Shown here piece after piece: positions 4,843 to 32,645 of a stretch of DNA of 32,645 nucleotides. Source of the stretch: an uncultured Blautia sp. Lineage in GTDB: Bacteria; Bacillota; Clostridia; Lachnospirales; Lachnospiraceae. The stretch's first letter is position 1. Every line of letters starts with the position of its first letter. Made by a program: the position numbers and the translations under genes. The stretch lies in the NCBI GenBank assembly GCA_948436455.1, contig CAOJIB010000015.1:1-32645 (forward strand), read 5' to 3'. The notes beneath the pieces were generated by a model. The model saw only the letters and a program-made list of their open reading frames with translations. It did not search any database and was not told where the DNA came from.

Positions 4843-4886
4843 TGCAAAAAAGCATTTATAAAGCGTATTCCTTTTTCATAAGTTTG

Positions 4887-6208: not shown

Positions 6209-6237
6209 TCTTGAAAAAAGCAGATAGTTTAGCAATT

Positions 6238-6268: not shown

Positions 6269-6308
6269 GTAAGAAACATACTGCAGAAATAGGAATTCTG
6301 TCAGATGA

Positions 6309-6379: not shown

Positions 6380-6397
6380 AAAAAATAATGAGGAAAT

Positions 6398-8621: not shown

Positions 8622-8677
8622 TGCAGAGCGTTTCTGGCATTCGCCGGAAGGCTCAATAACAATAAGGAGGAAAATTC

Positions 8678-10063
8678 ATGAGTGAAAAGGTGTTTGATCT
8701 TTTGATCACCAACGGTTCTATCGTAAGTCCCGAGGGCGTTTGCCAGGGGTACTTGGCTGTGAAGGATGGAAAGATCGCAGAGGAAGGAATCAATCCCGAA
8801 GGTATAAAGGCCGACCGGATCATCGACGCAAAGGGAAAATATATACTTCCCGGCGGGATTGACGACCATGTGCATTTCCGTGATCCTGGAGATGATTTGA
8901 CTTACAAAGAAGATACGACGACAGGTTCCATGGCTGCGGCCGCAGGCGGCATTACGACGATTTTCGATATGCCCAACGTGCATCCTTCCTGCCTGAATGT
9001 AAAGAATTTCCTTTTGAAAAAATCCATCTATGAGGAAAAGTGCCTGGTCAACTACGGCCTGTACGCATTCCTTGTGGAGGATCCTGAGCTGGTAGAGCCT
9101 TTGATGGACGCAGGCGCAGCAGGCTTTAAGTGGGATATGGGTACGCCGGATAATGTGCTGCCGGATAATCATAGAATGCCGACAAACGCGGAAGCGGCGG
9201 AAAGCTTCCAGAAGATCGCCGCTAGGGATTACTGCATTACCGTCCATGCGGAAGATATGGATCTGGTGAAATATTATACAGAAAAGATGAAAAAATCCGG
9301 CAGAGACGCCAAGGATTTCCTGACCCATGAGCAGGCTCGTCCGGATATCGTAGAGCTTTCCGCAATCGCCCGCACACTGATTCTTTCCGAGCTGTCCGGC
9401 TGTCGGGTAAATATTACGCATCTTTCTTCCAAAAAAGGTCTGGAGATGATTAAGACCGCTAAGGAAAAAGGCGCAAAAGTGACTTGCGAGATCGGGCCGT
9501 CCTGGTATACGTTCAGCACAGAGGATTATGAGAAATACGGCGGCGGCATCCGTGTGGTTCCGGCGATCCGTTATCCCGAAGATCGGGACGCTCTCTGGGA
9601 AGGCCTGGTAAACGGGGATGTGGATATGGTCGGCACAGACCACGCGCAGCACTCCTACGAAGAAAAATTCGAAAAATCCTGGTGGGATACTCTTCCCGGC
9701 ACCATCGGCGTACAGACCAGTCTGCCGTTGATCTTGGATCGTGCCAATAAGGGCGAAATCTCCCTGGAAAGAGTCGTAGAGGTTATGTCCGAAAAGCCGG
9801 CCAAGGTTTGGGGGCTGTATCCGAGAAAGGGTTGCCTGCAGGTAGGCGCGGACGCGGATATCACCATCGTAGATATGGATCTGGAGTGGACCGTAACCCA
9901 CGAGGAAATGTATTCCAAGACAAAATATACGCCGTTTAACGGCTTCAAGCTGAAAGGCAAACCAGTCATGACCATCGTCATGGGACAGGTAGCCATGGAA
10001 GACGGCAAGATCGTCGGCAAACCGGGCGTTGCGAAAATGGTCAATCCGAAGCAGGATTGGTAA
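8678..10063 (+). CDS. Hydantoinase/allantoinase/dihydropyrimidinase-family cyclic amidohydrolase
   Basis: A full-length 461-residue cyclic amidohydrolase. Binuclear metal ligands are all present: HVH (H64, H66), the lysine that becomes carboxylated in AGFKWDMG (K151), H190 in TVHAEDMD, H248 in NITHLSS and D321 in GTDHAQH. These enzymes open five- or six-membered cyclic amides such as hydantoins, allantoin, dihydropyrimidines and dihydroorotate. GTDHAxH resembles the allantoinase/dihydroorotase side of the family. A clear AAGGAGG precedes the ATG. Pairing with the racemase upstream and the ureidoglycine-type cupins downstream favours allantoin or a substituted hydantoin over dihydroorotate. 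The subgroup is not certain. Confidence 0.88.
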   Translation: MSEKVFDLLITNGSIVSPEGVCQGYLAVKDGKIAEEGINPEGIKADRIIDAKGKYILPGGIDDHVHFRDPGDDLTYKEDTTTGSMAAAAGGITTIFDMPNVHPSCLNVKNFLLKKSIYEEKCLVNYGLYAFLVEDPELVEPLMDAGAAGFKWDMGTPDNVLPDNHRMPTNAEAAESFQKIAARDYCITVHAEDMDLVKYYTEKMKKSGRDAKDFLTHEQARPDIVELSAIARTLILSELSGCRVNITHLSSKKGLEMIKTAKEKGAKVTCEIGPSWYTFSTEDYEKYGGGIRVVPAIRYPEDRDALWEGLVNGDVDMVGTDHAQHSYEEKFEKSWWDTLPGTIGVQTSLPLILDRANKGEISLERVVEVMSEKPAKVWGLYPRKGCLQVGADADITIVDMDLEWTVTHEEMYSKTKYTPFNGFKLKGKPVMTIVMGQVAMEDGKIVGKPGVAKMVNPKQDW

Positions 10064-10081
10064 AGATATAGGAGGAAATTT

Positions 10082-10834
10082 ATGAAGATCATTGATAATC
10101 ACAACCATCTTTGGGAAGGCAAGAAGGTAGACGGCTTTACAGATGCCAAGATGGGGATTAAAAGGCTTTTAGAGGATATGGACGAAGCTGGCGTGGATAT
10201 GGCCGGTGTCTGCACCATCGCCCAGTCTATGAATAACGAATATGTGATCGAGTGCGTCAAGGCGCATCCGGACCGTTTGTTCGGCTTTGCCTTTGTAGAC
10301 GCGACGGATCCCAATGCCGTAGAGCAGCTAAAGAGGTATCTGGATCAGGGCTTTGTGGGCTTAAAGCTGCATCCTAGGCTCCACGGATATCTCCTTGGTA
10401 ACCACGATTTGGTAGATCCGCTGATGGAGGTTTGCCAGGAATACAAGGTACCGATGTTTGCTCACGGCGGCTCTGAGGAAATGAACCATCCCTTCTATTT
10501 TGAAGAGATCGCGAAGGCGTTTCCGGATGTCACAATCATTATGGGCCATATGTGCACGCCCAATTACTGCACAGACGCCAAGATGATCGCCGCCCGCAAT
10601 CCGAATATCTATCTGGATAATTCCGCAGCGGAATATTTAAGCTGCAAAACCGGCGTGATGATGGACGGCGTAGGGCCGGAAAAGATTTTGATGGGTTCCG
10701 ATTGGCCGGGCAGCCATTTCGCCCTTTCCGTACAAAAGACAAAGCTTTCCGCCAAATATGCCAAAGATCCGGACAAGGCGTTCGAGATGATGGCCGGCGG
10801 CAATATTGCGAAGATTCTAAATCTGAAAATATAA
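10082..10834 (+). CDS. Amidohydrolase-2 family (TIM-barrel) hydrolase or decarboxylase
   Basis: A 250-residue protein with HxH near the N terminus (NHNHLWE, H7 and H9), a histidine in IIMGHMCTPN and an aspartate in MGSDWPG, the metal-site pattern of amidohydrolase family 2. Members include lactonases, non-oxidative decarboxylases (ACMSD-like) and small-ring hydrolases. It starts 18 bases after the hydantoinase gene behind AGGAGG, so it is co-translated with it and probably acts on a neighbouring intermediate. The reaction cannot be named from sequence. Confidence 0.85.
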   Translation: MKIIDNHNHLWEGKKVDGFTDAKMGIKRLLEDMDEAGVDMAGVCTIAQSMNNEYVIECVKAHPDRLFGFAFVDATDPNAVEQLKRYLDQGFVGLKLHPRLHGYLLGNHDLVDPLMEVCQEYKVPMFAHGGSEEMNHPFYFEEIAKAFPDVTIIMGHMCTPNYCTDAKMIAARNPNIYLDNSAAEYLSCKTGVMMDGVGPEKILMGSDWPGSHFALSVQKTKLSAKYAKDPDKAFEMMAGGNIAKILNLKI

Positions 10835-10858
10835 TTTGGAATAGTACCGGGTTTTTCC

Positions 10859-10920
10859 TTACCGGGTCGGCGGCGCAAGCGGGGACGCTCCTTATAGATT
10901 TCCGGCGCGCCGTCCGGTAA
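10859..10920 (+). other. Long intercistronic stem-loop
   Basis: TTACCGG (10859-10865) pairs with CCGGTAA (10914-10920), and GC-rich sequence inside (GTCGGCGGCGC / GCGCGCC) extends the structure. It occupies part of the 249-base gap before the aminotransferase gene. No T-run follows. The rest of the gap holds a smaller inverted repeat (CGAAAT/ATTTCG near 10990-11007) and no convincing promoter. Confidence 0.4.
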
Positions 10921-11083
10921 AGAGCCTGGATATTATTATAAAACCCGTAACTTAAGCGAAACTTGTAGAAGTCAGGAAAGATGGCGCCGAAATGACAGAT
11001 TTCGTGTGTATCGGCTTCCCAGGAAACCGGCAACTGTGAGGCGTAGCAGTTACATCATTAATCAAAAGAAAGGAAGAAACATT

Positions 11084-12388
11084 ATGAACCAAAAACTATC
11101 TGTTGATGAAGTCTTAAAGATGAACCAGGAGTATCAGTTTTTTACCTGGACACCACAGAAGAGTTCCCTGGAGCGTATTGCAGTAGCAGGTGGCAAGGGA
11201 TGTTATTTCTGGGATTTTGATGGCAACAAGTATCTGGATGCAGGTTCACAGCTTGTAAATCTGAATATCGGATTCCAGGATGAAAGAGTTGTAAAGGCAA
11301 TCAAGGATCAGGCGGACGACCTCTGCTACATCGCTCCTTCCTATGCAACTGAAATCCGCGGCCGTCTGGCAAAGAAGATCATTACCGATCTGGCTCCCGG
11401 CATGGGCAAAGTGCTCTTTACCTTGGGCGGCGCAGATGCGAATGAATATGCGCTGCGTATCGCAAACGGTTATACCAAACGTTATAAAGTATTTTCCCAG
11501 TATATGGGATATCATGGTTCTACCTACGGCGCTTCCAGCTTAAACGGTCAGGTAGCCCGTGGAAATATCGATCCTGGCATTGCAGGCTTCGTACATTTCT
11601 TAGGGCCGTGGTGGCGTGATCATGGTCTGAAATTCGACAGCGAAGAAGAATATACCGCATTCCTTCTGCGTATGCTGGAGCGTCAGATCATCCAGGAAGG
11701 CCCGGAAAAGATCTCCTGTCTGGTTACAGAAAGTATGCAGGGCGGCGGCGGCGTAATCGAAATGCCCAAGGGCTACATGAAGGGCATCCGCGAGCTGTGT
11801 ACAAAATACGGCATCCTGATGGTTTGCGACGAGGTTATGGTTGGCTTTGGACGTACAGGCAAGTGGTTTACCTGCCAGCATTATGATGTACAGCCGGATA
11901 TCATCACCTTTGCAAAGGGCAGCACCTGCGGCTACACACCTCTTGGCGGCGTAATCGTTTCCAAAGAGATCGCAAAATATTACGACGACGTGGCGCTTCC
12001 CGCAGGTCTTACCTACAATTCTCATCCGATTTGCTGCGCGGCATCTCTGGCGACAATCGGCGTTTACGAGGAAGACAAACTGCTGCAGAACAGCCAGGAA
12101 CGCGGCAAAGAGCTCCTGGCCGGCCTGATCGAGCTGGATAAGAAGCATAAGAGCGTAGCGAACCCCAGAGGTCTTGGTCTGCACACCGCGTTAGATCTGG
12201 TAGGCGGCGCGGCGACTGGCCCCGCTCATGAGAAGCTGAAAAATATGTATATCGATAAGGGAGTGATTCCTTACATTCTTCCGCCGAGAATCGTTCTTTC
12301 TCCGCCGTTGATCATCACGAAGGAAGAAGTACAGAAGGTTCTTGAAGTTACGGATGAAGTTCTGACATTCGCAGATACGCTTGTATAA
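11084..12388 (+). CDS. Class III (omega) aminotransferase, PLP-dependent
   Basis: A 434-residue fold-type I aminotransferase of the acetylornithine/GABA/taurine-pyruvate group. PLP contacts are visible: VCDEVMVGFGRTGKW (the Asp that holds the pyridine nitrogen) and the Schiff-base lysine K278 in TFAKGSTCGYTPLGG. The start at 11084 is chosen over 11006 because AAAGGAAG lies directly upstream. Such enzymes move amino groups from amines or beta/gamma-amino acids to pyruvate, glyoxylate or 2-oxoglutarate. In this cluster it could handle glyoxylate or an aldehyde such as a semialdehyde. The motif after the lysine is reminiscent of taurine-pyruvate aminotransferases, but substrate calls within this family are unreliable. 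Confidence 0.9.
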   Translation: MNQKLSVDEVLKMNQEYQFFTWTPQKSSLERIAVAGGKGCYFWDFDGNKYLDAGSQLVNLNIGFQDERVVKAIKDQADDLCYIAPSYATEIRGRLAKKIITDLAPGMGKVLFTLGGADANEYALRIANGYTKRYKVFSQYMGYHGSTYGASSLNGQVARGNIDPGIAGFVHFLGPWWRDHGLKFDSEEEYTAFLLRMLERQIIQEGPEKISCLVTESMQGGGGVIEMPKGYMKGIRELCTKYGILMVCDEVMVGFGRTGKWFTCQHYDVQPDIITFAKGSTCGYTPLGGVIVSKEIAKYYDDVALPAGLTYNSHPICCAASLATIGVYEEDKLLQNSQERGKELLAGLIELDKKHKSVANPRGLGLHTALDLVGGAATGPAHEKLKNMYIDKGVIPYILPPRIVLSPPLIITKEEVQKVLEVTDEVLTFADTLV

Positions 12389-12423
12389 GGTGTATGGGCG
12401 CCGTCCGTAAAGTTTGATTTGCC

Positions 12424-12455
12424 GGTTGCCGTCCGCAAGGGAGCGGGCGGCGACC
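12424..12455 (+). other. Intercistronic hairpin, first of a tandem pair
   Basis: A 13-bp stem (12424-12436 with 12443-12455, two G-U pairs) and a 6-base loop, directly followed by a second hairpin. Probably part of a composite terminator or RNA-stability element. Confidence 0.6.
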
Positions 12456-12461
12456 CTGGCC

Positions 12462-12493
12462 GGGCCAGCGTCTTGGGAGGCTGGCCCATTTTA
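12462..12493 (+). terminator. Probable terminator after the class III aminotransferase
   Basis: A perfect 8-bp GC stem (GGGCCAGC 12462-12469 with GCTGGCCC 12480-12487) followed by ATTTTAT. The T-run is short, so some read-through into the GH43-like gene is likely. Confidence 0.6.
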
Positions 12494-12592
12494 TGCCTTT
12501 GTATGCAAAATGGATGCCGGCGGTGGGTGTTTTGCATACCAATTGGGACAAATGGACGGTTGAAAAGATAGATACACGAAGGAGACTGTTTT

Positions 12593-13531
12593 ATGGAAGA
12601 AAAAGCGTATTTGCTGGTGCACTATAAAAGCCCGGATAAGCAGATGGACGAACAGGTGCATTTTGCTCTTAGCCGCGATGGCTATGTATGGGAGGCCGTC
12701 AACGGCGGCGCGCCGGTATTCGTAGCGGATAAAGGCGAGCGGGGCGTGCGGGACATTTCTATTCTTCGTACCAAGGACGGCCAGTTCGTTATCTTGGGAA
12801 CCGACCTTTGCATGTCGGAAAATTTCGAAAAGAAGTATCAGCGGCAATGGCCGAATATGGGCCGTTACGGCAGCCAGAAGATCAGTTTGTGGAGGTCTAA
12901 GGATCTGGTGCATTGGTCTGCGCAGCAGCTGATAGAGCCAGGCGATGGGAATTTCGGATGCTGCTGGGGTCCGAACGCTATGTACGATCCAGCTTCGCAG
13001 AAATACGTGCTTTATTGGGCTTCCTCCCATTCCTCCAATGATTACGGGGCAAAATCTATTTATTATGCCGAAACGGAGGACTTTGAGAATTTTGGAGAAG
13101 CAAAATTCTTATGCGCGAAGGAGGACGCAAGCGTAGTGGATCCCTGCATTCGCGTGGTGGACGGCGTCTATTGGCGTTTTCTAAAAAGCAGAAGCAACCC
13201 CTTTGCGGTGATCCTGGAAAAGGGAGATTCCCTGACCGGGACGTACAAGCGGGTGGAAGCGTTTGATGCGTGGATGAGTCAGTTAAAAGCGAACGAATAT
13301 GAGGCGCCGCTTTTCTATCGGCTATCCGATGGAAAATGGTGCTTGCTTTTAGATTATTTTGGCGAGGACCGCGACTATAAGGGATACGTACCATTTATAA
13401 CGGAGGATCTGGCGTCGGGGATTTTCAAAGAGGCGAAAGAAGGGTTTTCCTTCCCCTACGGCATGAAGCACGGGGATGTGCTGGAGATTTCCCTGGAGGA
13501 ATACCAGCGGATCCAGGACTATTGGAAGTAA
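12593..13531 (+). CDS. Glycosyl hydrolase family 43-like five-bladed propeller protein
   Basis: A 312-residue protein without a signal peptide, hence cytoplasmic. The repeating pattern of D/W-rich strands and turns (SKDLVHW, DPASQKYVLYWAS, KYVLYW) fits a GH43/62-type beta-propeller. Possible catalytic acids are D54 (VRDISI), D183 (VVDPC) and E237 (YEAPLFYR), the last resembling the GH43 general acid. GH43 enzymes cleave arabinosides, xylosides and related sugars. An intracellular glycosidase among nitrogen-ring enzymes hints that the imported substrate may be glycosylated, and an FGGY kinase gene downstream fits sugar release. It has its own GAAGGAGA site. The exact bond it cuts is unknown. 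Confidence 0.72.
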   Translation: MEEKAYLLVHYKSPDKQMDEQVHFALSRDGYVWEAVNGGAPVFVADKGERGVRDISILRTKDGQFVILGTDLCMSENFEKKYQRQWPNMGRYGSQKISLWRSKDLVHWSAQQLIEPGDGNFGCCWGPNAMYDPASQKYVLYWASSHSSNDYGAKSIYYAETEDFENFGEAKFLCAKEDASVVDPCIRVVDGVYWRFLKSRSNPFAVILEKGDSLTGTYKRVEAFDAWMSQLKANEYEAPLFYRLSDGKWCLLLDYFGEDRDYKGYVPFITEDLASGIFKEAKEGFSFPYGMKHGDVLEISLEEYQRIQDYWK

Positions 13532-13574
13532 GCGTCCGTTTGTATGAAACGGGCAGGGACTAGGAGGTCATATG

Positions 13575-14351
13575 ATGAAACATGATTTTACCGGGAAAAC
13601 AGTGGCGATTACCGGAGGAGGCTCTGGTATAGGAAAATTGTCCTGTCAGCGTTTTGCCGAGGCCGGCGCGAAAGTAGCGGTGATCGATATCAATGGGACA
13701 ACCGCAAAGCAGACCGCCGAGGAGATTACAAAGGCAGGCTTTACCGCCAGTGCGTTCCAGGCGGATATTACCGATGAAAACGCAGTAATAGAAACGTTTA
13801 AAGCCATTCATGACTGCTTCGGCAGCATCGACGTTTTATTTAACCAGGCGGGCATCAGCCCGATGGGCACGCTGGAAACGACCTCCTATGAGGATCTAAA
13901 AAAGGTGTTCGCGATCGATACCTTCAGCGTATTTTTGACCTGTAAATACGTGCTTCCCTATATGAAGCAGCAGGGCGGCGGCACGATCATCAATACGATC
14001 GGCACCTATGCGTTCCGCTATGTGCAAAATAAGCTGGGCTATTGCAGCTCCAAGGCGGCGGCTCTTAGCATTACCAAGTCTGTGGCCGTAGATTACGCCA
14101 GAGATCATATCCGCTGCAACGCAATTTGTCCGGGGTATGTGGACACTCCGCTGAATAAGGACGTGCCGGCTGACCGGCGCGATCGGTATCTGGATCGGAT
14201 CCAGCCGATGGACTATCTGATTAAGGCCGAGGATATCGCGCAGACCGCTTTATACTTGGCCAGCGACGCTTCCTACGCAATCACCGGCCAGGCGATCGTT
14301 GTGGACGGCGGAACAGAAGCTACTTTAATCTACACAAGTCCAAACCAATAA
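13575..14351 (+). CDS. Short-chain dehydrogenase/reductase (SDR)
   Basis: A 258-residue classical SDR. The nucleotide motif TGGGSGIG (13-20) and D38 after the second strand suggest NAD(H) preference. The active-site YCSSK (Y156, K160) is present and followed by the usual ADHIRCNAICPGYVDTP-like region. At the place of the usual catalytic serine I read TIGT (141-144), so a threonine may stand in or the chemistry may differ. The start at 13575 lies 7 bases after AGGAGG; the ATG at 13572 is possible. Position between GH43-like and cupin genes suggests oxidation or reduction of a hydroxyl group on a pathway intermediate. Confidence 0.88.
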   Translation: MKHDFTGKTVAITGGGSGIGKLSCQRFAEAGAKVAVIDINGTTAKQTAEEITKAGFTASAFQADITDENAVIETFKAIHDCFGSIDVLFNQAGISPMGTLETTSYEDLKKVFAIDTFSVFLTCKYVLPYMKQQGGGTIINTIGTYAFRYVQNKLGYCSSKAAALSITKSVAVDYARDHIRCNAICPGYVDTPLNKDVPADRRDRYLDRIQPMDYLIKAEDIAQTALYLASDASYAITGQAIVVDGGTEATLIYTSPNQ

Positions 14352-14414
14352 CCGGCGATTGTCTGATGAGAAAATTTCATCGCCATACGGGCGATGCAGT
14401 GCAAGGAGGAAACG

Positions 14415-15209
14415 ATGGATATATCTTGCTGCAATCCGGGAATGGAATTAAACGAACAGAACCACTTAAGCGTCAGCAGGACCAGAAAAGAACCGGGGGT
14501 TGTTTGTCAGATGCCCAGGCGATTTATCTTTTTTGACAATCTGCCCGGCTGGGAACATACCGAAATATGGAATTATACAACACCGCGGATGGATGATTCC
14601 AGCTTTATCATGGGACAGCTCAAAATGGCGAAGGGCGCCCGGACGATGGCCTCTGTGGATAATGGATATGAGAACTTTTTCTATGTGTGCGCTGGCGCCG
14701 TGACGATTCGCTTTTTGGAAAAGACGCATCGGCTTAAGAAGGAGGGCTACTGCTACCTTCCGCCAAAGGTGGCCTTTGAGATGATCCAGGAGGGAGAAGA
14801 CGCGGCGGAAATCCTGTGGATAAAAAAAGTATACGAACCCTTAGCCGATACGGCGGCTCCCGCCGCTTTTATAGGCGACGCCGCTCAGTTACCCCAAAAA
14901 GGGACAACCGCAGAATGGACGAAGGAATGTCTGCCAGATGGGACGGATTTTGGATTTGACATGAGCGTCAATATACTGACATATTATCCCGGCGTAACGT
15001 CCGAGCGTACCGAAGTACACATGAGCGCTCACGGAGCGTACGTATTAGACGGCAGAGGAGAAATGGTCGTGAACGGCAGGCATTACGAGACGCATGCAAA
15101 CGATTATTTCCATATCGCGCCCTGTGCTTCCCACTATACGGCGGCGTATGCACCAAAGCCGCTGCGCATCCTTTTCTTTGAAGAAGTAAACAGGGATTAT
15201 CATTTGTAA
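14415..15209 (+). CDS. Bicupin, (S)-ureidoglycine aminohydrolase (AllE/YlbA)-like, copy 1
   Basis: A 264-residue protein with two cupin domains, the length and layout of (S)-ureidoglycine aminohydrolase. The C-terminal cupin holds the probable metal ligands E200, H202, H206 (TEVHMSAHG) and H240 (CASHYTA), and the protein ends EVNRDYHL like family members. The N-terminal cupin has lost most ligands. The known enzyme is Mn-dependent and releases ammonia from ureidoglycine to give ureidoglycolate. AAGGAGGAAAC precedes the ATG; an upstream in-frame ATG at 14394 is less likely. A paralogue with the same ligand numbering follows 16 bases later. Substrate may differ from ureidoglycine. Confidence 0.82.
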   Translation: MDISCCNPGMELNEQNHLSVSRTRKEPGVVCQMPRRFIFFDNLPGWEHTEIWNYTTPRMDDSSFIMGQLKMAKGARTMASVDNGYENFFYVCAGAVTIRFLEKTHRLKKEGYCYLPPKVAFEMIQEGEDAAEILWIKKVYEPLADTAAPAAFIGDAAQLPQKGTTAEWTKECLPDGTDFGFDMSVNILTYYPGVTSERTEVHMSAHGAYVLDGRGEMVVNGRHYETHANDYFHIAPCASHYTAAYAPKPLRILFFEEVNRDYHL

Positions 15210-15225
15210 AAGTGGAGGGAATGCT

Positions 15226-16020
15226 ATGGATGTTTCCAAGCTCAATTTAAATAACCGGCAGATGGAAGAGGAGCATCATCTTGCGAACGCCAGAGCTTTT
15301 CTACAGCCGGGACAGGCCTGCTTGATGCCTTATGCGGTGCGGGTGGGAAAGAGGATCCCTGGCTGGAGGGATACGTTGGTTTCGCATTTGGCGACACCGA
15401 AGCTGGGAGCGGATTTTCTGGAATGCGAGCTTTGCATAGCGCCGGGCGGCGGCGCCTGTGAGCGTATAGAGAATCCCTACGAAAATTATATGTATGTGGT
15501 GGAAGGACAGATCGAGGTCATTATTTCCGGAAAAAAATACACACTGGAGAAAGAAGGCTATTTCTGGAGTCCGCCGGGCGTGGATTTTGAAGCGACGAAT
15601 AAAAGCGATCAAAGAGCCCGGGTACTCTGGGTGCGGAAGCGCTATATCGAATCGCCTTTCCACAGTGTGCCTGCCCCGATCGTGGGCAACGTGCTGGATA
15701 TTGAGGGAGAACAGTTCCCGGCGGATTATGAGCAGCATTGTCTGCCTATCGACGACGACTATGGCTTTGATATGGCTATGAATATGTGCACCTATTATCC
15801 AGGCGTGACGATGCCGCGTACGGAAACGCACATCTGCGAGCACGGCAATTACTTTGTAAGCGGCAGAGGATTGATCTGTATCAATGGGGTATTTCATGAA
15901 GTGTTTCCGGGAGATTTCTGCTATGTGGCGCCCTACACGCCCCATACGGCCACCGGCTTAGCCCCTACAGCGCTGCGCTATTTATTATGCAAAAACATTA
16001 ATCGGGAGTTTATGTTCTGA
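15226..16020 (+). CDS. Bicupin, (S)-ureidoglycine aminohydrolase-like, copy 2
   Basis: A 264-residue paralogue of the preceding protein. The metal-ligand pattern falls at identical positions (E200, H202, H206 in TETHICEHG and H240 in YTPHTAT). The tail KNINREFMF keeps the family ending. Sequence outside the motifs has diverged, so this is an old duplication and both copies are probably functional, perhaps as a heteromer or on successive substrates. It is translated from GGAGG 16 bases after copy 1 and is the last gene before MerR-type promoter B. No ureidoglycolate lyase or allantoate amidohydrolase accompanies the pair. Confidence 0.82.
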   Translation: MDVSKLNLNNRQMEEEHHLANARAFLQPGQACLMPYAVRVGKRIPGWRDTLVSHLATPKLGADFLECELCIAPGGGACERIENPYENYMYVVEGQIEVIISGKKYTLEKEGYFWSPPGVDFEATNKSDQRARVLWVRKRYIESPFHSVPAPIVGNVLDIEGEQFPADYEQHCLPIDDDYGFDMAMNMCTYYPGVTMPRTETHICEHGNYFVSGRGLICINGVFHEVFPGDFCYVAPYTPHTATGLAPTALRYLLCKNINREFMF

Positions 16021-23954: not shown

Positions 23955-24021
23955 AGAATGAAAAAGGGAGCCCATATCTGTAAAAAACGAAACAGTGACG
24001 AGTTTTCCAAAGGAGAGTCGA

Positions 24022-25575
24022 ATGAAAAATATACTTGGACGTGAAGTTCCGGATTATATTGAAGATTACGGTACAGTCCGGCATTACGCAGGCGCCTTCG
24101 CCTTAGCCGGCCAGCCCTCGAAGCGTGCTGAGGCCCGGATCGAGAAAGGCGCTGTGATCGGGCAGAGTAAGCTTTGTAAAGACCTGGAGGAAGCGCTGGA
24201 CAAATTGCCTTTGCGGGACGGTATGACCGTGTCGTTTCACCACCATCTGCGGAATGGAGATTTCGTGACCAATCAGGTCATGGAAGCCATTGCCAGACGG
24301 GGCTACAAGGATATTCATGTGGCGGCCTCCGGTCTTTTTGCCTGCCATGCGCCTCTGGTTCCGTTGATCGAGGATGGGACGATTACTAAGATTTCGGTCA
24401 GTACCTTCGGTGCCGGGCCGGTGGCCCAGGCGATTTCTGCCGGCAAGCTGCAAAAGCCCGCAGTCCTTATGAGCCACGGCGGCCGCGCCCGAGCGGTGGA
24501 AAACGGCGAGCTGCACATTGATATTGCTTTCTGCGCGTCGCCAAGCTGTGACGCCATGGGAAATATCAACGGGAGTCACGGCAAGAGCGCCTGCGGCTGT
24601 CTGTCCTATATGTATGCGGACGCGGCTTTTGCGGATTATGTTGTAGCGGTAACGGATACGCTGACGCCGTATCCCAATACGCCGATCGAAATTTCGGAAC
24701 ATCTGGTAGATTTGGTGGTGCAGGTAGACGCCATCGGCGATCCGGCGGGGATTGCCAGCGGTGCGACGAAGGTGACAGAGGATCCGGCCCGGCTGGCAGT
24801 GGCGGAAATGGCCGCGGAGCTTTTGGATCAGGCCGGCTATGTGCAGCAGGGCATGAGCTTTCAGACAGGAGCCGGCGGCATTAGTCTGGCAGTGGCGGCC
24901 CGCCTTCGGGAGCGGATGCTAAAGCGGGGAATTACTGGAAGCTTCGGCTCTGGCGGTATTCACGGTTATTTTACACGGATGCTGGATGAAGGACTCTTTC
25001 GGGCGCTTTGGAACGTGCAGTGCTTTGATATTGAATCCATCGAGCATCTGGCCCGGCATGATCCCCGCCATCTGATTATGAGCGGCAGTCTCTATGGCAA
25101 TCCAGAAAATAAGGGATGTGTGGTCAACAATCTGGATATTATGATCTTGGGAGGTTTTGAAGTAGATACAGATTTCCACTTGAACGTGATTACTGGTTCC
25201 AACGGCGTGATCATGAGCGCTTCGGGCGGCAACGAGGACTGCGCCGCGGGCAGCAAGATCTCGCTGGTCGTCAGCAATCTGATGAAAAAGGGCAATCGCT
25301 GCATGATCCGGGAGAAGGTGACGACGATCACAACGCCGGGGGATACGGTGGACGGCATTGTAACCGACAAGGGAATTGCGATCAATCCCCGTCGGACGGA
25401 TCTTATGGAAAAACTAAAAGGCAGTGGCCTTCCCATTGTAGACATTCAGGAGCTGTACCAGATGGGCCAAAAGCTGGGAGCGGTGGAAGATCATCCGAAG
25501 ATCGGTGATCGGATTGTAGGCGTTGTGGAATACCGGGACGGTACGGTGATTGACGTGGTACGTCAGGTGCTTTAA
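24022..25575 (+). CDS. Citrate lyase alpha subunit (CitF)-like CoA transferase
   Basis: A 517-residue protein of full CitF length, with the family start (LGREVPDYIEDYGTVRHYAGAF), SFHHHLRNGD, the FCASPSCDAMGNINGSHG block and the glycine-rich NVITGSNGVIMSASGGNEDCAAGSK near the active site. In citrate lyase this subunit swaps the acyl group between CitD-bound acetyl and citrate. No citD, citC, citX or citG occurs in the window, so it may act directly on CoA esters, for example malate or citramalate against acetyl-CoA. AAAGGAG sets the start at 24022; the frame opens at 23995. Spacing to malic enzyme is about 67 bases. Confidence 0.87.
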   Translation: MKNILGREVPDYIEDYGTVRHYAGAFALAGQPSKRAEARIEKGAVIGQSKLCKDLEEALDKLPLRDGMTVSFHHHLRNGDFVTNQVMEAIARRGYKDIHVAASGLFACHAPLVPLIEDGTITKISVSTFGAGPVAQAISAGKLQKPAVLMSHGGRARAVENGELHIDIAFCASPSCDAMGNINGSHGKSACGCLSYMYADAAFADYVVAVTDTLTPYPNTPIEISEHLVDLVVQVDAIGDPAGIASGATKVTEDPARLAVAEMAAELLDQAGYVQQGMSFQTGAGGISLAVAARLRERMLKRGITGSFGSGGIHGYFTRMLDEGLFRALWNVQCFDIESIEHLARHDPRHLIMSGSLYGNPENKGCVVNNLDIMILGGFEVDTDFHLNVITGSNGVIMSASGGNEDCAAGSKISLVVSNLMKKGNRCMIREKVTTITTPGDTVDGIVTDKGIAINPRRTDLMEKLKGSGLPIVDIQELYQMGQKLGAVEDHPKIGDRIVGVVEYRDGTVIDVVRQVL

Positions 25576-25616
25576 CAAAGAAATGAAAGTTTTGACAAAT
25601 AGAAAGGAGCGTATGT

Positions 25617-26561
25617 ATGAAGGTAGCATTTTTAGAGCCGCTGGGAATTCCCCAGGAGGCTTTGAAGAGTTTGGTAGAGGAATCCTTGGGCGGCCTTGTG
25701 GAGGCCACATATTACGACACTCGCGTAGAAGACGCTGCGACGCTTATAGAGCGCAGCAAGGGCGCGGACTGCGTCGTATTATCGAATATCAAATATGGAG
25801 AAGACATCATCAGCCAGTTGCCGGAGCTGAAAATGATCTGTGTGGCGTTTACCGGCGTAGATCTGGTGGATGTGGAGTATTGTAAGTCAAAAGGCATTAT
25901 GGTATGCAATTGCGCCGGTTATTCTACCGTAGCGGTGGCTGACCTGGTTTTCGGTTTTGCCATCGACCTTTCCAGGAATATCGTGGCCTGCAACGAGGCC
26001 GTTCGTGCGGGCGGAACAAAGGCCGGTCTGGTGGGCTGGGAGCTGGAAGGAAAGAAATTCGGCGTGATCGGCGCCGGGGCCATCGGTACCCGCGTGCTGC
26101 AGATCGCCCAGGCCTTCGGCTGCAAGACATACGCGTACAGTCGGACAAAGAAGGAAATTCCCGGCGTGGAATTCGTTTCCATGGACGAGCTTCTTCGCAC
26201 TTGCGATATCGTTTCCGTGCATGTGCCCCAAAATCCCCAGACCATCGGCATGATCGGGAAGGATCAGTTTGCGCTGATGAAAAAAGACGCGCTGTTTATC
26301 AATTGCGCCCGCGGGCCGATCGTGGACAGCCAGGCGCTGGCGGACGCTTTAAATGAAGGCAGGATCGCCGGCGCGGCGGTGGACGTTTTTGAAATGGAAC
26401 CGCCGGTGCCAGGGGAGCACGTGCTTTTGCAGGCGAAGAATCTGCTGGCTACGCCCCATGTGGCTTTCGCCTCTGCCCAGGCCTTTGAAAAGAGAGCGGT
26501 GATCGTCTGCGACAACATTAAAGGCTGGATTGAGAAAAAACCGATCAATGTGATCTGCTAG
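25617..26561 (+). CDS. D-2-hydroxyacid dehydrogenase (SerA/glyoxylate reductase family)
   Basis: A 314-residue NAD(P)-dependent enzyme. The Rossmann motif GAGAIG (G152, G154, G157) and the catalytic triad are intact: R232 in NCARGP, E261 in EMEPPVP and H281 in TPHVAF. Relatives reduce glyoxylate, hydroxypyruvate or other 2-keto acids or oxidise 3-phosphoglycerate; it lacks a C-terminal ACT domain, so it is not a regulated serine-synthesis enzyme. It is the only gene in the window that ends in TAG. If this amber were read as pyrrolysine, 30 residues would be added before TAA at 26652-26654; the protein is already full length, so it is probably a true stop. Last gene of the catabolic run. Confidence 0.92.
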   Translation: MKVAFLEPLGIPQEALKSLVEESLGGLVEATYYDTRVEDAATLIERSKGADCVVLSNIKYGEDIISQLPELKMICVAFTGVDLVDVEYCKSKGIMVCNCAGYSTVAVADLVFGFAIDLSRNIVACNEAVRAGGTKAGLVGWELEGKKFGVIGAGAIGTRVLQIAQAFGCKTYAYSRTKKEIPGVEFVSMDELLRTCDIVSVHVPQNPQTIGMIGKDQFALMKKDALFINCARGPIVDSQALADALNEGRIAGAAVDVFEMEPPVPGEHVLLQAKNLLATPHVAFASAQAFEKRAVIVCDNIKGWIEKKPINVIC

Positions 26562-26710
26562 ACCCTGCTTGGCGTCTGGCAGAATCCCTTGTTTTTCTAT
26601 TTGCTGCGCCGGCCTTTGCCGGTGCAGTGCAGGCAAAAAGAAGAGGGTTTCTAAAAGGCGGCAGAATGAAATATTTTTGGCAGGACTTATACATATTTCT
26701 ATATTTTTAC

Positions 26711-26741
26711 TTGACTCTAAATCTACTGTAGGTATTATACT
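26711..26741 (+). promoter_or_regulatory. MerR-type promoter/operator C (mttB)
   Basis: TTGACT (26711-26716), a 19-bp spacer and TATACT (26736-26741, 5/6 match to consensus). The whole 31-base element matches promoter A at 24 positions. Transcription should start near 26748, about 30 bases before the methyltransferase ATG, so this site serves mttB closely. An AAGGAGGTGGAT ribosome site follows. Confidence 0.8.
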
Positions 26742-26777
26742 TACTGTAAAATAAAAATAAGGAGGTGGATTCTCTTC

Positions 26778-28259
26778 ATGAAAAGAAATCTATCGGCCGG
26801 CTTACATGACGTGACAGGCCTGGGACTTGATCTGTACAGCGAAGACAGCTTGAAGCAGCTGCACTTAGCGACGTTAGAGGTCCTGTCGGAGGTAGGTATA
26901 GAAGTCGGCAGCAAGGACGCCCTGGAATGTTTTGAAAAGGGCGGCTGTGATGTGGATTACGACAAAAAAGTTGTCAAGATCCCGCCCTATGTAGTGGAAG
27001 AAGCGATCCAGTCATCTCCTTCGACTTTCACTTTATATGGGAAAAGCGAGGAGTTAAATATTAATTTGCAAGATGGCCGGGTATATCATTCTCCCTTCGG
27101 CTGCGCGCCGCAGATCGAAGACCTGGAAACAGGGGAGATCCGTCCGGCAGTAAAGGCGGATTTGATCGACACCGCCACGCTGGTTGACCAGCTTCCGGAA
27201 TACGACTTCTGCTTTTCTACACTGACGGCCAGCGATGTAAAGCAGGGCTTTACGAATATTCATAGCTTCGAAATGCATTATACCCATTGCCGCAAGCCGA
27301 TCCTGTCTTCCTCCAGCAGAAAGTGGACGGTGGAATACGATATCCAGATGGCAAGCGTAGAACGCGGTAGCTTAAAAGCATTACAGGAAAAACCGACGAT
27401 TATGTTCGGCGAGTGTACGATCAGCCCGCTGTTTATTCCAGAAGAGGCATGTGAGGTGCTGATGACAGCGGCGGAATACGATATTCCTGTGGCGAATATG
27501 ACGATGTCCATGGCAGGCGGTATGGCGCCGGTAACCTTGGCTGGTTCAGCCATTATCGCAAACGCTGAAAACCTTGCCACATTGGTTTTGTCACAGCTCG
27601 TACGTAAGGGTGCCAGATTCGTATGCGGCGGTTCCCCGGGAATCTCCGATATGCGTCACGGCGCTTCCGCGCTGGTGGGCTGTCCCGAGGCAGGACTTCT
27701 TAGCGCCACGATGGCCGCTCTTGGAAGAATGTACGGAATTCCCACGCTGATCGGCGGGACATAGACAGAGTCCAAGTTTTGTGACTTCCAGGCAGGTCAT
27801 GAAAAAACAATGACGGGAATACTTCCGGTGCTCGCAGGAGCGAATATTATCTATGGCGGCGGTATATTGGACAGCGGTATTGTCATGAGCTTAGGACAGC
27901 TCGTAGCCGATGCCGACATTCTCCATATGTACCGTAAAGCACAGGAAGGAATACCGGTGAACGAAATTACCATGGCGATGGATGTAATCCGCGAGGTAGG
28001 TATCCGCGGAAATTTCCTGGAGGAGGAGCACACTCTGGAATATTATCCGGAGCAGACGAATCCAAGGATCTTCCAGCGCGGCGTGGCGACAGCCGACGCA
28101 AAGGAATTAAAGAAGCTGGCTGATGAACGGGCCCGCAAGATCTTAGCAGAACACAGAGATAAGCTGGCGGTTTCCAAGGAGGTTGCCGACAAGATTCATC
28201 AGATGGTTCTGGAAGCGGAAGAAAAGCAGCTGAATCTGAAATACGGTAAGGTGGATTAA
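26778..28259 (+). CDS. mttB: Trimethylamine methyltransferase family protein (MttB) with pyrrolysine at residue 329
   Basis: Read through the single in-frame TAG at 27762-27764, this is a 493-residue MttB-family corrinoid methyltransferase. Its start (NLSAGL...HLATLEVLSEVGIEV) and its length fit the family; the Methanosarcina enzyme is about 495 residues with pyrrolysine near position 334, and here it is residue 329. The sequence before the codon (GIPTLIGGT) and after it (TESKFCDFQAGHEKTMTG, then LAGANIIYGGGILDSG) forms one continuous barrel with no shift of frame. Pyrrolysine forms the adduct that presents the methylamine to the Co(I) corrinoid. Trimethylamine is the substrate known for pyrrolysine-type MttB; non-amine or other quaternary-amine substrates are known for pyrrolysine-free relatives. 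The corrinoid protein MttC and the second methyltransferase are not in the window. Driven by promoter C. Confidence 0.94.
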
Positions 28260-28276
28260 TATTTCCATACCGGATA

Positions 28277-28308
28277 GGGCGCTGGAAAAATTCCGGCGCC
28301 CTTCCTTT
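28277..28308 (+). terminator. Terminator after mttB
   Basis: An 11-bp stem (28277-28287 with 28291-28301, one G-U pair) with a 3-base loop followed by TTCCTTTAT. It separates mttB from the permease. A second, smaller hairpin (28332-28338 with 28352-28358) followed by GGTTTTTATATG lies in the remaining gap and may add to it; TATAGT near 28375 could be a -10 box for the permease, with no clear -35. Confidence 0.75.
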
Positions 28309-28427
28309 ATACCTTGGTATGAAAAACGGTTGCCGCGCCAAAGGATATTTTGTGCGGCGATAGGTTTTTATATGTATAGTGATTCCAACAGATGGAAAAG
28401 AACCGATAAGACGGGAGAGTGATAGGG

Positions 28428-29732
28428 ATGGAGCTGCTTAGCCTGCTGGGCATTCTTATAGGAATTACATTTTTTATCGTATGCTGTTTTAAGGGTGTGC
28501 AGATCTTCCTGTCCGCCTGGCTGGCTTCGGTAATCATCATCCTTTTTTCGGGTATGCCACTTCTGGATACTTTAACTGGCGCGTGGGCCGGTTCGGCCGG
28601 CGATTTTATCGCTAGTTATATTCTCGTGTTGGCCGGCGGTTGCCTGTACGGCCAGACGCTGGTGGACGGCCGGGGTTCCCGGAGTATGGCGGTGGCCTTT
28701 GCCAATGCGATCCGCAAGAGCAAGCGGAATCAGAAGTTTATCTGCGTACTGTTTGTGCCGGCTATGTATATGTTGCTGACTTTTGTGGGCGTGAATAGCT
28801 TCGTGATCGTTTTTACGGTTCTTTATACGGCCAGAGACCTGTACCAGGAAATCGACGTCCCCTGGCGGTTTTACTGCTACGGAGGGGCCTGCAGTACGGC
28901 TACCTGCTATCTGGGCGGTTCGCTGCAGCTTGTGAACGTACAGCTTTCAGAAATGTACGGTACGCCTCTGACGGCGGGGATGGGGTTATCCTTCGTGGGT
29001 TTCGGCGTGTTTTGTCTGGTTTTTGTGCTTCTGGCAAAGCTGGACATGAAGAAGGCGGAAAAGAACGGGGAAACCTTTCTAACCACCGGCGCCGCTTTTG
29101 CCAGTCAGGCCGTAAAGGAAGAAAGCGGTAAAGAGCAGGAGCTGCCAAAAGCGAGGTATACGCTGTTTTCCATGGCGGCCGTAGTACTTTGCGCCGTAGC
29201 TTTTGACGTTTTGATTGGTCTTTTTGTTGGAATTTTATGTAATCTTTTATTTTTTCGAAAATATATCACTGATTTGAAAAGTACGGTTGCTACCGGAATG
29301 ACCACCAGTTATAGCCCCGCGTTAAATGCGGCGGCTACCGTAGCCCTTTCTACGCTGATGGCCGAAGCGCCTGGATTTCGGATCGTGGCGGATGCACTAT
29401 CCCAGTTATCTCCTCTGTATTTTGGTCCTGCAGTGATTTCTTTAGTCACGTTCCTTACGTCGGCGCCTCCGGGAGCGATCAGCGCTTTCGGTCCGCAGAT
29501 CTTAGAGTCTATGACAGCGGCCGGGTATTCCGCAGCGGTTACGCACCGCATTTTAAGCGGTGCGGTGTTCCCCTGCGTCGGTCCCCACTCTGTAGGCGTT
29601 GTCAATACGACCACACTGGCAAAGCTTCCTTATAAAAAGGCGGTGCCCGTGTATTTAAGGATCAGCTTGATTCCTGGTTTTCTCGGGCTACTGGCGATGA
29701 TCCTTTGCGTACAATTTGGTGTGTTTGTATAA
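28428..29732 (+). CDS. GntP-like (gluconate/organic acid:H+ symporter type) permease
   Basis: A 434-residue, very hydrophobic protein with about 11-12 membrane segments. The block AGYSAAVTHRILSGAVFPCVGPHSVGVVNTT and the twofold-repeated organisation suit the GntP/ion-transporter superfamily of gluconate, hydroxy-acid and citrate carriers. The start at 28428 follows GGGAGAG by 8 bases; a GTG at 28419 in the same frame is possible. It sits after the mttB terminator and before a strong terminator, so it is probably its own unit. A hydroxy-acid exporter or importer would fit the C4/hydroxy-acid enzymes upstream, but nothing fixes the substrate. Confidence 0.78.
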   Translation: MELLSLLGILIGITFFIVCCFKGVQIFLSAWLASVIIILFSGMPLLDTLTGAWAGSAGDFIASYILVLAGGCLYGQTLVDGRGSRSMAVAFANAIRKSKRNQKFICVLFVPAMYMLLTFVGVNSFVIVFTVLYTARDLYQEIDVPWRFYCYGGACSTATCYLGGSLQLVNVQLSEMYGTPLTAGMGLSFVGFGVFCLVFVLLAKLDMKKAEKNGETFLTTGAAFASQAVKEESGKEQELPKARYTLFSMAAVVLCAVAFDVLIGLFVGILCNLLFFRKYITDLKSTVATGMTTSYSPALNAAATVALSTLMAEAPGFRIVADALSQLSPLYFGPAVISLVTFLTSAPPGAISAFGPQILESMTAAGYSAAVTHRILSGAVFPCVGPHSVGVVNTTTLAKLPYKKAVPVYLRISLIPGFLGLLAMILCVQFGVFV

Positions 29733-29773
29733 AAAGAACGGTAACTATTTAGCCTCCGGCTTCATAGTTATAG

Positions 29774-29820
29774 AAAACGCTCTTTGCTGATGAGACGGTT
29801 GTCAGTGAAGGGCGTTTTAT
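29774..29820 (+). terminator. Terminator after the permease gene
   Basis: An 11-bp stem (AAAACGCTCTT 29774-29784 with AAGGGCGTTTT 29808-29818, one G-U pair) with an inner CTGA/TCAG stem; the 3' arm ends in TTTTAT. Just upstream TAACTAT/ATAGTTA (29742-29748, 29764-29770) forms another stem. It can serve both strands. Confidence 0.75.
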
Positions 29821-29990
29821 AATGCATGGGAATTTTTCAGCAGGTTTTAGCGGCCACCGTTTCCAATGGCTTGGCGAAAACTTGGGCGTAGAAAGGATTG
29901 AAATCCAGGAAATACCATGCTACAATAAGATCATTCTTTTTGTATGAGGCAAAGGCGGAGATAGAAGACTGGGAAGACGAGGTGACGGCG

Positions 29991-30395
29991 ATGAGCTGGA
30001 AAGAAAGAGTGGCGCGTTTTTTGCAGGGGCGCTACGGAGTGGATCAGTTTTCGAAGTTTCTGGTAGGTGCGGCGATGGTCTGCATCCTTTTGTCGGGGCT
30101 TTTGCGAAATCGATTCTTTCATCTGCTGGGATGGGTATGCCTGGCGTATATCTATGTGCGAATGCTTTCGAGGAATTTTGAAAGGCGGTATGCGGAAAAC
30201 CAGGCATATCTTCGGGTACAGGGAAAAGTACTGGATTTCTTCCGCAGGCAAAAGAGCGTCGGCACGGCCGCGGATCGGGAGCATAAGATTTATAAATGTC
30301 CCGCCTGCGGGCAAAAGACGAGGGTACCGAGGGGCCGGGGCAAAATCGAGATTGACTGTCCCAGATGCCATCATAAGTTCATAAAAAGGACCTGA
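29991..30395 (+). CDS. Small membrane protein with C-terminal zinc ribbon
   Basis: A 134-residue protein: a basic start, two hydrophobic segments (about 24-60) and a C-terminal CxxC...CxxC zinc ribbon (YKCPACGQ and IDCPRCHHK). The start at 29991 is chosen because the upstream part of the frame (from 29898) is unlike a protein; the ribosome site is weak (GAGGTG). The next two genes follow at once, and the three-gene set with DUF5685 and a J-domain protein recurs in Lachnospiraceae as I recall. Function unknown; the ribbon may bind nucleic acid or protein. Confidence 0.75.
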   Translation: MSWKERVARFLQGRYGVDQFSKFLVGAAMVCILLSGLLRNRFFHLLGWVCLAYIYVRMLSRNFERRYAENQAYLRVQGKVLDFFRRQKSVGTAADREHKIYKCPACGQKTRVPRGRGKIEIDCPRCHHKFIKRT

Positions 30396-30397
30396 GA

Positions 30398-31261
30398 ATG
30401 TTCGGATATATTACCATCAATAAAGCAGAAATGAAATTCCGGGAGTTTGCGGTGTATCAGTCCTACTACTGCGGGCTTTGCCGGGTTTTAAAGGAGCGGC
30501 ACGGCTTGCTCGGACAGCTCACCCTTACGTACGATATGACTTTTTTGCTGTTGCTTTTGACCGGGCTTTATGAGCCAGGGGGAGAGAAGGGGCAATACCG
30601 GTGCGTCGTGCACCCTTTTGTAAAACATACGGCGCGCGTCAATGCGTATACAGAATATGCGGCGGATATGAATCTTCTTCTGTCCTATTATAAATGTCAG
30701 GACGACTGGAGTGATGAAAAGAAAGTATCTGCCGCTGCGCTGTCAAGGCTTCTGAGGAAAGGAAGCCGCCGGGTAAAGGCGCGGTATCCTCAGAAAGCTG
30801 CTTTTATCAGCCAGAGGCTGCGGGCCTTGTATGCCAATGAAAAGAAAGGCGACAAAACGCTGGATGAAATGGCCGGGCTTTTCGGGGATATTATGGGAGA
30901 GCTGTTTGTCTACAGGGAAGACGAGTGGGCGCCGCATCTGCGCCGGATGGGCTTTTATCTGGGGAAATTTATTTATCTGCTGGACGCCTATGAAGACGTG
31001 GAGGAGGATTGCAGAGCAGGCAATTATAATCCATTAAAAGAGCTTTCGGACGCGCCGGACTTTTCCGGAACCTGCAAAGGACTTTTAGACATGATGATGG
31101 CGGAATGCTGTCGGGAATTCGAATTGCTTCCGATTATAAAATACGCAGAAATTTTACGAAATATATTGTATGCGGGCGTATGGCGCCGGTTTGCCCAGGT
31201 GACTGCTCGCAGAAAACAGGAACAAGAGGGACAGGAGAAGAAGAATGCTGGATCCTTATAA
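30398..31261 (+). CDS. DUF5685 family protein
   Basis: A 287-residue protein with the start [28 protein letters not shown] and a CxxC that fits DUF5685. It is mainly alpha-helical, with a stretch rich in leucine (LLLLLTGL) that could be amphipathic rather than a membrane segment. It starts 2 bases after the zinc-ribbon gene and overlaps the J-domain gene by 17 bases, so the three proteins are made together. Function unknown. Confidence 0.8.
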
Positions 31262-31859
31262 GGTGTTGGGCGTGGAAAGAGGCGCTACGGACGAAGAAGT
31301 AAAAAAAGCTTACAGAAAACTAAGCCGCAAATACCATCCCGACGCGAATATCAATAATCCCAACAAAGAAAAAGCAGAGGAAATGTTTAAAACGGTGCAG
31401 CAGGCCTATGAGCAGGTGATGAGGGAACGGGAATACGGAAGCTCGGGGGGAGGCTTTGGAGGCTTTGCCGGGGAGACGGCTGCGAATGACGACGATACGC
31501 GGTACTTCCAGGTTGTGGCAAATTATCTGCAGACCGGTTCTTATCGGGAGGCATGGAACGTACTGCAGAATATACGGGAAAGAAACGGGCGCTGGTACTA
31601 TTTTGGCGCGGTGGCCCAGGCAGGGCTGGGAAATAATGTGCAGGCGCTGGAATATGCCCAGGAAGCCTGTCAAAGGGAGCCGGGGAATCTGGAATACCAG
31701 TTTTTGCTCTCCAGGCTTTCAGGCGGGGGCGGCTGGTATCAGACACGGCAGCAGAGCTACGGGCCTGTGATGCCTGTGGGAAACGATTTGTGCTGTCGGC
31801 TGTGTTTGGCAAATATGCTGTGCAGTACCTGCTGCGGCGGAAGGATTTGTTGTATCTAA
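31245..31859 (+). CDS. J-domain (DnaJ-like) protein with cysteine-rich tail
   Basis: A 204-residue protein. Residues 3 to about 65 form a J-domain with HPD at 31-33 (RKYHPDAN), which stimulates the ATPase of a DnaK partner. A Gly-rich linker follows, then a helical region with TPR-like character (about 80-160), and a tail with [17 protein letters not shown]. It lacks the zinc-finger and client domains of full DnaJ, so it is a specialised co-chaperone, presumably for the DUF5685 and zinc-ribbon proteins upstream. Confidence 0.9.
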
Positions 31860-31875
31860 AAAAGAGGAGGAAATT

Positions 31876-32645
31876 ATGGGAATAAAGATTGGCATTTACG
31901 GATATGGGAATCTGGGCCGGGGTGTGGAATGCGCCGTCCGGCAGAATCCGGATATGGAGCTGGCGGCAGTATTTACAAGAAGAGATCCGCAGACGGTGAA
32001 GATTCTCACAGAGGGCGTGCAGGTTTGCCCGGCGGATACGTTGGAGGAGAAAAAGGATGAAATCGACGTATTGATCTTGTGCGGCGGAAGCGCCACAGAC
32101 CTGCCGATACAGACGCCGAAGTGCGCCCGATATTTCAATGTGGTGGACAGCTTCGATACCCATGCCAGGATTCCGGAGCATTTTGCCAATGTGGATGCGG
32201 CTGCGAGGGAAGGAGAGAAAACCGCTATTATTTCAGTAGGCTGGGATCCGGGGATGTTTTCTTTGAATCGACTGTATGCCGGCGCTATTTTGCCAAAGGG
32301 ACAGGATTATACTTTTTGGGGAAAAGGCGTCAGCCAGGGGCATTCGGACGCTGTGCGCCGGATCGACGGCGTAAAGGATGCGAAGCAGTATACGATTCCG
32401 GTGGAGACGGCCCTTGAAGCGGTGCGCAAGGGAGAAGCGCCCGTATTATCCGCCCGTCAGAAGCACACCCGGGAATGCTTTGTCGTGGCCAAGGAAGGGG
32501 CGGATCTGGCCCGGATCGAGCAGGAAATTAAAACGATGCCTAATTATTTCGACGAATATGATACGACGGTGCATTTTATTAGTGAGGAGGAAATGCGGCG
32601 TGATCACAGTGGTATTCCTCACGGCGGCTTTGTCATCCGCAGCGG
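31876..32645 (+). CDS. ddh: meso-Diaminopimelate dehydrogenase (3' truncated by the window)
   Basis: The first 256 residues of an enzyme normally about 325 residues long. The N-terminal Rossmann motif GIYGYGNLGRGVE, then TRRDPQ, CGGSATDLP, NVVDSFDTHARIPEHF and SVGWDPGMFSLNRLY are typical of diaminopimelate dehydrogenase, which aminates tetrahydrodipicolinate in one NADPH-dependent step for lysine and cell-wall synthesis. GAGGAGG lies 6 bases before the ATG. The frame is open to the last base. It is unrelated to the catabolic cluster. Confidence 0.94.
   Translation, partial: MGIKIGIYGYGNLGRGVECAVRQNPDMELAAVFTRRDPQTVKILTEGVQVCPADTLEEKKDEIDVLILCGGSATDLPIQTPKCARYFNVVDSFDTHARIPEHFANVDAAAREGEKTAIISVGWDPGMFSLNRLYAGAILPKGQDYTFWGKGVSQGHSDAVRRIDGVKDAKQYTIPVETALEAVRKGEAPVLSARQKHTRECFVVAKEGADLARIEQEIKTMPNYFDEYDTTVHFISEEEMRRDHSGIPHGGFVIRS

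Follow-up and report, generated by a model that had tools for sequence, protein, structure and literature searches.

An mttB gene of an uncultured Blautia sp. carries an in-frame amber codon that probably encodes pyrrolysine

The window, that is, the whole stretch of DNA that was analysed (contig C15 of an uncultured Blautia sp., 32,645 bp), contains an mttB gene with a single in-frame TAG. With high confidence we read this codon as encoding pyrrolysine (Pyl) at residue 329 of a working enzyme, and trimethylamine is the probable substrate. The initial annotation had taken the amber codon most likely for pyrrolysine, and this interpretation was supported by the column in which the codon falls and by a partial set of pyl genes in the same genome. 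The features of the mttB region are as follows.

26711..26738, + strand: promoter-like site TTGACT-16-TATTAT 5' of mttB (consensus match only)
26760..26768, + strand: ribosome-binding site AGGAGGTGG, read from the sequence
26778..28259, + strand: mttB, trimethylamine-type corrinoid methyltransferase, 493 residues with the TAG counted as a residue
27762..27764, + strand: TAG in frame at codon 329, proposed to encode pyrrolysine; equivalent to Pyl334 in the solved MttB
27762..27861, + strand: Rfam PYLIS_3 match, mttB sequence directly 3' of the amber codon
28276..28302, + strand: terminator-like 12-pair stem directly 3' of mttB (consensus match only)

The start codon ATG (26778-26780) lies 9 nt 3' of AGGAGGTGG. 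When the sequence was re-read, the single frame with one TAG at 27762-27764 that stays open to 28259 was confirmed as first described; 164 sense codons follow the TAG before a TAA at 28257-28259, and no second stop or frameshift was found in the 493 codons. When the bases 3' of the TAG were shuffled 20,000 times, only one shuffle was stop-free in frame, and the frame is thus open by more than chance; the other two forward frames of this part contain 11 and 7 stops. Third-position GC was similar before (0.585) and after (0.567) the TAG. Automatic annotation had been expected to split the gene into pieces of 328 and 149 residues, and a table-11 ORF listing did give a 328-aa and a 149-aa ORF. That the two parts form one MttB-family protein, as had also been proposed, was borne out by the TIGR02369 profile, which the halves matched in register (profile positions 2-312 and 315-469).

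The PYLIS_3 match scored 72.3 bits against a gathering score of 38, and all seven TAG genes in the same comparison scored 65.1-83.7. Since 3 of 14 TAG-less paralogue genes also passed the gathering score (39.6-45.7 bits), the match partly reflects protein homology and was rejected as proof of recoding. The promoter-like site and the terminator-like stem suggest that mttB may be transcribed as a single gene; the numbers of such elements in the mttB region were not beyond chance (three promoter-like sites vs 2.4 expected, three terminator-like stems vs 2.1 expected).

The amber codon had been predicted to lie at the pyrrolysine column of the family, and it does. In a phmmer alignment to the Methanosarcina barkeri structure 7xcl, residue 329 aligned with the X that stands for the modelled Pyl334, and it fell in the TAG column of 83/83 aligned TAG homologues, which comprised the best 80 of 192 named relatives, the gene of genome G054 (the same as L127 among those 80) and two tandem neighbours. 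The 12 TAG-less paralogues in the alignment all carried L, V, M, Q or W at this column. The presence of TAG in 80/80 of the named relatives (best 80 of 192) is partly ascertainment, because the search for them used two short patterns, derived from conserved parts of a pair of TAG proteins, and one pattern sits near the Pyl site.

According to the available part of PMC9842639, Tyr364 and the Gly110 carbonyl of the solved M. barkeri MttB (7xcl, 7xcm, 7xcn) hold a water on the Pyl imine, Met249 shifts to let trimethylamine in, and Thr111 and Gly372 contact the corrinoid. The catalytic neighbours of Pyl by which membership of the family was judged (Tyr364, Met249, Gly110 and Gly372) were all present in mttB, as Tyr359, Met243, Gly108 and Gly367, respectively. 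The Met, Tyr and Gly372 columns were invariant in 83/83 TAG homologues (80 of them the best 80 of 192), whereas in the 12 TAG-less paralogues Met was found in 1/12, Tyr in 0/12 and, at the Gly372 column, G in none of the 10 residues printed. Gly110 is said in the same partial text to be fully conserved in Pyl MttBs; its column was S in 59 and G in 24 of the 83 TAG homologues, so it is no marker here. Two further positions have changed in mttB, Cys109 at the Thr111 site (Thr in 2/83 and Cys in 6/83 TAG homologues) and Ala110 at the Gly112 site (Ala in 3/83), and these changes mean little because the columns are variable. The M. barkeri enzyme aligned over window residues 2-461 with the Pyl column in common. 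It differs from mttB in having Glu225 where mttB has Phe219, neither Thr111 nor Glu225 being conserved in the 83 bacterial TAG homologues; mttB, moreover, has a bacterial host and does not adjoin mttC or pyl genes on its contig.

The joined protein, with K in place of Pyl, scored 513.2 bits against TIGR02369 (510.8 bits in the genome-wide profile search). Judged by its TAG column, its catalytic residues and the tree, mttB is a Pyl-MttB; it is not a formal TIGR02369 equivalog, because the score is just under the curated cut-off of 525 bits. The nearest relatives found among the best 80 of 192 were the TAG-MttBs of 'Candidatus Formimonas warabiya' (49% identity), followed by those of Sporomusa sp. 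KB1 and S. acidovorans (48%), compared with 24-33% identity to the 12 TAG-less paralogues. The TAG-less MttB superfamily (glycine betaine methyltransferase, 9yce, 2qne) still matched at 182 bits and is one protein family with mttB. A wide tree built by a quick method, with long branches, set the 84 TAG rows (window included) apart from the 12 TAG-less rows with SH-aLRT 99. In a tree of 49 of the 84 TAG rows, from which 35 named rows had been thinned out and the 12 TAG-less rows left out, mttB grouped with the TAG MttBs of Formimonas and Sporomusa with an ultrafast bootstrap of 100. Both Formimonas and Sporomusa sp. KB1 carry two tandem TAG-mttBs, and mttB clustered with the second of them; for S. 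acidovorans one mttB was listed in the stretch examined (L056). Scans with the mttB protein alone found no relatives in genome contigs, and a scan of viral contigs found no mttB relatives.

The sequence of mttB is unusually diverged. Its end branch was the longest of the 49 TAG rows (1.68, followed by L133 with 1.64), and it deviated at 23 of the 100 columns that were at least 95% conserved in TAG members, compared with 5 in L055, 5 in L106, 6 in L057, 6 in L126 and 13 in L133. Because of this long branch and the changed near-invariant columns, activity or substrate may differ from those of other TAG MttBs, and the kinship with the second tandem MttB suggests a subfamily with a task of its own. 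A variant of the main reading is accordingly worth weighing, in which pyrrolysine is inserted and the substrate of this divergent subfamily is another amine. The clustering with the second tandem copy and the branch length speak for it. However, the pocket residues around Pyl are kept, the Cys109 and Ala110 changes are uninformative, and the available parts of PMC9842639 and PMC10653893 assign Pyl-MttB to trimethylamine; we regard another substrate as possible but unlikely.

Pyrrolysine genes had been looked for in the same genome (2.51 Mb in 187 contigs, 86.95% complete, 2.98% contaminated), and this search succeeded in part: pylT, pylB, pylC and the likely start of pylD were located on contig C142, and pylS was not found. 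The order on this 5,082-bp contig is the 3' part of rpoC, a terminator-like stem, pylT, pylB, pylC, the likely pylD start and the contig end. Both pylB and pylC are full-length, and their products scored above the curated cut-offs (PylB 454 bits vs 348, PylC 337 bits vs 248). The likely pylD start consists of 35 codons resembling the PylD starts of relatives, followed by an in-frame TGA 6 nt before the contig end; against six PylD sequences it gave raw scores of 32 to 65, with neither E-values nor a control, and a whole-gene PylD search of the genome gave no match.

The pylT gene (C142:2439-2510, L168) scored 75.5 bits with a covariance model of bacterial tRNA-Pyl built from 15 pylTs and was the only strong hit in 64 genomes of the genus; under the strict filters used, with 77 candidates scored per genome, weak pylTs elsewhere may escape. 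As a check, the model recovered 6 known pylTs among 10 sources and nothing else, although this check is non-independent, the left-out pylTs (L067, L105, L106) being identical to included ones. Two other genomes of the genus gave weak hits of 30.1 and 23.6 bits, which were rejected by eye as an ordinary tRNA and a non-tRNA. In the predicted structure of the C142 pylT the anticodon stem has 6 bp, the anticodon is CUA, and the variable and D loops measure 3 and 5 nt, respectively, as in a known pylT. The sequence is distinct from all 19 listed pylTs and has A-U at the first D-stem pair, where the 19 have G-C. The folding energy was not exceptional (32/200 shuffles were as good, compared with 31/200 for the Formimonas pylT). 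ARAGORN, which called tRNA-Pyl at 19 other places in 20 rows, two of which (L003 and L049) are one gene, made no call at L168:2439-2510; standard tRNA finders may under-report tRNA-Pyl of this type. A sequence-pattern search for pylT that was negative in 64 genomes is void, as the pattern matched 0/19 known pylTs, and a first-pass reading of mttB as an orphan TAG gene in a genome devoid of pyl genes was overturned when the covariance model found pylT.

A PylSc search of the 86.95% complete assembly did not find pylS: the cut-off is 178 bits, and background synthetases scored 23.8 and 20.9; in the 61 genomes searched, PylSc was above cut-off in one (G054). PylSc lies between pylT and pylB in S. 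acidovorans (L056), Sporomusa sp. KB1 (L106) and L085, and there is no pylS between these genes on C142. A pylS past the edge of C142 is nevertheless plausible by analogy, because four loci (L058, L059, L067 and L071) have the order pylT-B-C-D and in L076 PylSc comes after PylD.

These results bear on the possibility that the system is a decaying relic, with pylS recently lost, the TAG terminating translation and mttB a pseudogene. The missing pylS, which is not between pylT and pylB either, the long branch with its 23 changed near-invariant columns and the TGA into which the likely pylD start runs would fit decay. A relic, on the other hand, would not be expected to keep 493 mttB codons free of a second stop or frameshift, full-length pylB and pylC above their cut-offs, Met243, Tyr359 and Gly367 in mttB, and a tRNA fold in which the first D-stem pair has changed on both sides from G-C to A-U. 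As the likely pylD is cut by the contig edge in an 87% complete assembly, the absence of pylS is not established, and we consider decay quite improbable.

Both contigs appear to belong to the genus. Part of window positions 23995-32645, mostly the right end, matched 62/64 genus genomes (own included), and the rpoC of C142 matched 58/64 (own included), the best other at 81%. Contamination of the bin was thought unlikely because both contigs match the genus in this way and the genome holds one rpoC match. In 15 of 19 same-genus rpoC loci (the best 19 of 57 other matching genomes), rpoC is followed by a gene that by eye resembles a protein kinase, and the pyl cassette after rpoC therefore looks like an insertion peculiar to this species. 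The assumption that rpsL follows rpoC was not upheld, the genes preceding rpsL on contig C42 being others. As a tentative proposal, rated somewhat below even, this Lachnospirales species would have gained the cassette between rpoC and its usual neighbour and would employ it for a fast-evolving, solitary Pyl-MttB of the second-tandem subfamily, with a changed substrate or corrinoid partner.

A TIGR02369 match with TAG was found in 1/64 genomes of the genus, in 1/397 genomes of the family (334 genera; 24 genomes had any match, with at most three candidates scored in each) and in 2/392 genomes of the order (11 with any match), the second being G054. Besides the own genome, TIGR02369 matches occurred in 23/397 family genomes, none with TAG among the matches listed. 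Among the sampled genomes, pyrrolysine decoding thus looks rare in the host family and order. In the titles and abstract openings of the papers listed, no case was found of pyrrolysine together with trimethylamine in Lachnospiraceae, or of pyrrolysine in Lachnospirales. The greater frequency of TAG-less paralogues in the family would favour one of two other readings: the TAG is decoded by an ordinary suppressor tRNA for amber, or a sequencing error has created it in a quaternary-amine demethylase of the TAG-less MttB type. Both are highly improbable, since the TAG falls precisely in the Pyl column, mttB has the Met243, Tyr359 and Gly367 that characterise TAG homologues, tRNA-Pyl, pylB and pylC are in the same genome, and the closest relatives found are TAG members (48-49% identity, vs 24-33% for the 12 TAG-less).

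If pyrrolysine is decoded as proposed, PylB, PylC and PylD would make it from lysine, PylS would charge it to the CUA-anticodon tRNA-Pyl, and it would be inserted at UAG codon 329 of mttB. In the TIM barrel, trimethylamine would form an adduct with the Pyl imine, assisted by Tyr359, and one of its methyl groups would then be transferred to the cobalt of an MttC-like corrinoid protein. Candidates for the later steps are on contig C1. Two MttC/MtgC-like corrinoid proteins are encoded there, which scored 164 and 190 bits with TIGR02370 and so stayed under its cut-off of 215. The contig also encodes a methyl-THF:corrinoid methyltransferase (322 bits vs a cut-off of 259) that would move the methyl group to tetrahydrofolate, a RACo-domain activase that would keep the corrinoid reduced, and a DUF2284 protein. 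The activase exceeded the cut-offs of its Pfam domains and fell short of those of the NCBIfam models AcsV and RamA. We infer that pylD and pylS continue beyond the contig edge, that mttB is expressed and acts on trimethylamine, and that the C1 corrinoid proteins are its partners. On contig C15, mttB has neither a corrinoid protein gene nor a pyl gene linked to it. The genome has two MTTB-family matches, the window mttB and a TAG-less fragment at the end of contig C22, so that no mttB lies beside the C1 genes. By eye, C22 (L050) carries histidine-use and methylaspartate-type glutamate fermentation genes in addition to this TAG-less MttB-family gene, which is truncated by the contig end.

Several known systems resemble the one described here. 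'Candidatus Formimonas warabiya' DCMF (L055), Sporomusa acidovorans (L056) and Sporomusa sp. KB1 (L106) have the TAG at the same codon as mttB. In L055 and L106 the closest TAG-mttB is the second of a tandem pair, whereas the window mttB stands alone, and unlike it the TAG-mttBs of all three loci have pylT, further pyl genes and a gene for a corrinoid protein no more than a few kb away. The available text of PMC6778437 reports pyl genes, including a pylBCD set, in Formimonas; near its mttB pair, the pylC-like frame after pylB (L055:9829-10302) is only 157 aa. A Pyl-MttB of gut bacteria is known in Bilophila from the part of PMC7593587 available, where mttB is likewise not adjacent to pyl genes and is cut at the TAG in public databases, as in the split ORFs here. 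The accessible part of PMC10653893 describes Pyl-MttB in Emergencia, an Anaerovoracaceae genus and further genera; 'Lachnospir' is absent from its main text. The Bilophila and Emergencia genes are from other families and were likened to mttB by their descriptions. The 12 TAG-less Lachnospirales paralogues differ from mttB at the Pyl and Tyr columns and, for the most part, at the Met column as well.

The window mttB would extend pyrrolysine decoding to a lineage in which it looks rare. As standard annotation splits an amber-interrupted mttB, trimethylamine consumers can be overlooked (PMC7593587, available in part). The present case also gives reason for caution, since a faulty tRNA pattern together with negative PylS and PylD gene searches mimicked absence of the machinery although pylT, pylB and pylC were present.

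Several minor observations were made in the genome. TAG ends 10/73 ORFs of at least 150 aa in the examined stretches (mttB amber included) and 9/64 ORFs in the same-genus loci used for comparison, and TAG is therefore not clearly avoided. The pylB gene on C142 ends in TAG (L168:1277-1279), with the next TAA or TGA 20 codons further. Directly 3' of mttB (window 28419-29732) is a 437-aa hydrophobic ORF that by eye resembles a membrane transporter; it matched no NCBIfam model, and no Pfam match was significant. At window positions 1262-16020, ABC-transporter-like genes precede amidohydrolase, hydantoinase-like and cupin-like genes; judged by eye, the region would serve catabolism of the purine or allantoin type. 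Just 5' of mttB, a 2-hydroxyacid dehydrogenase gene (25617-26561) ends in TAG and could gain 30 codons if tRNA-Pyl reads this codon through.
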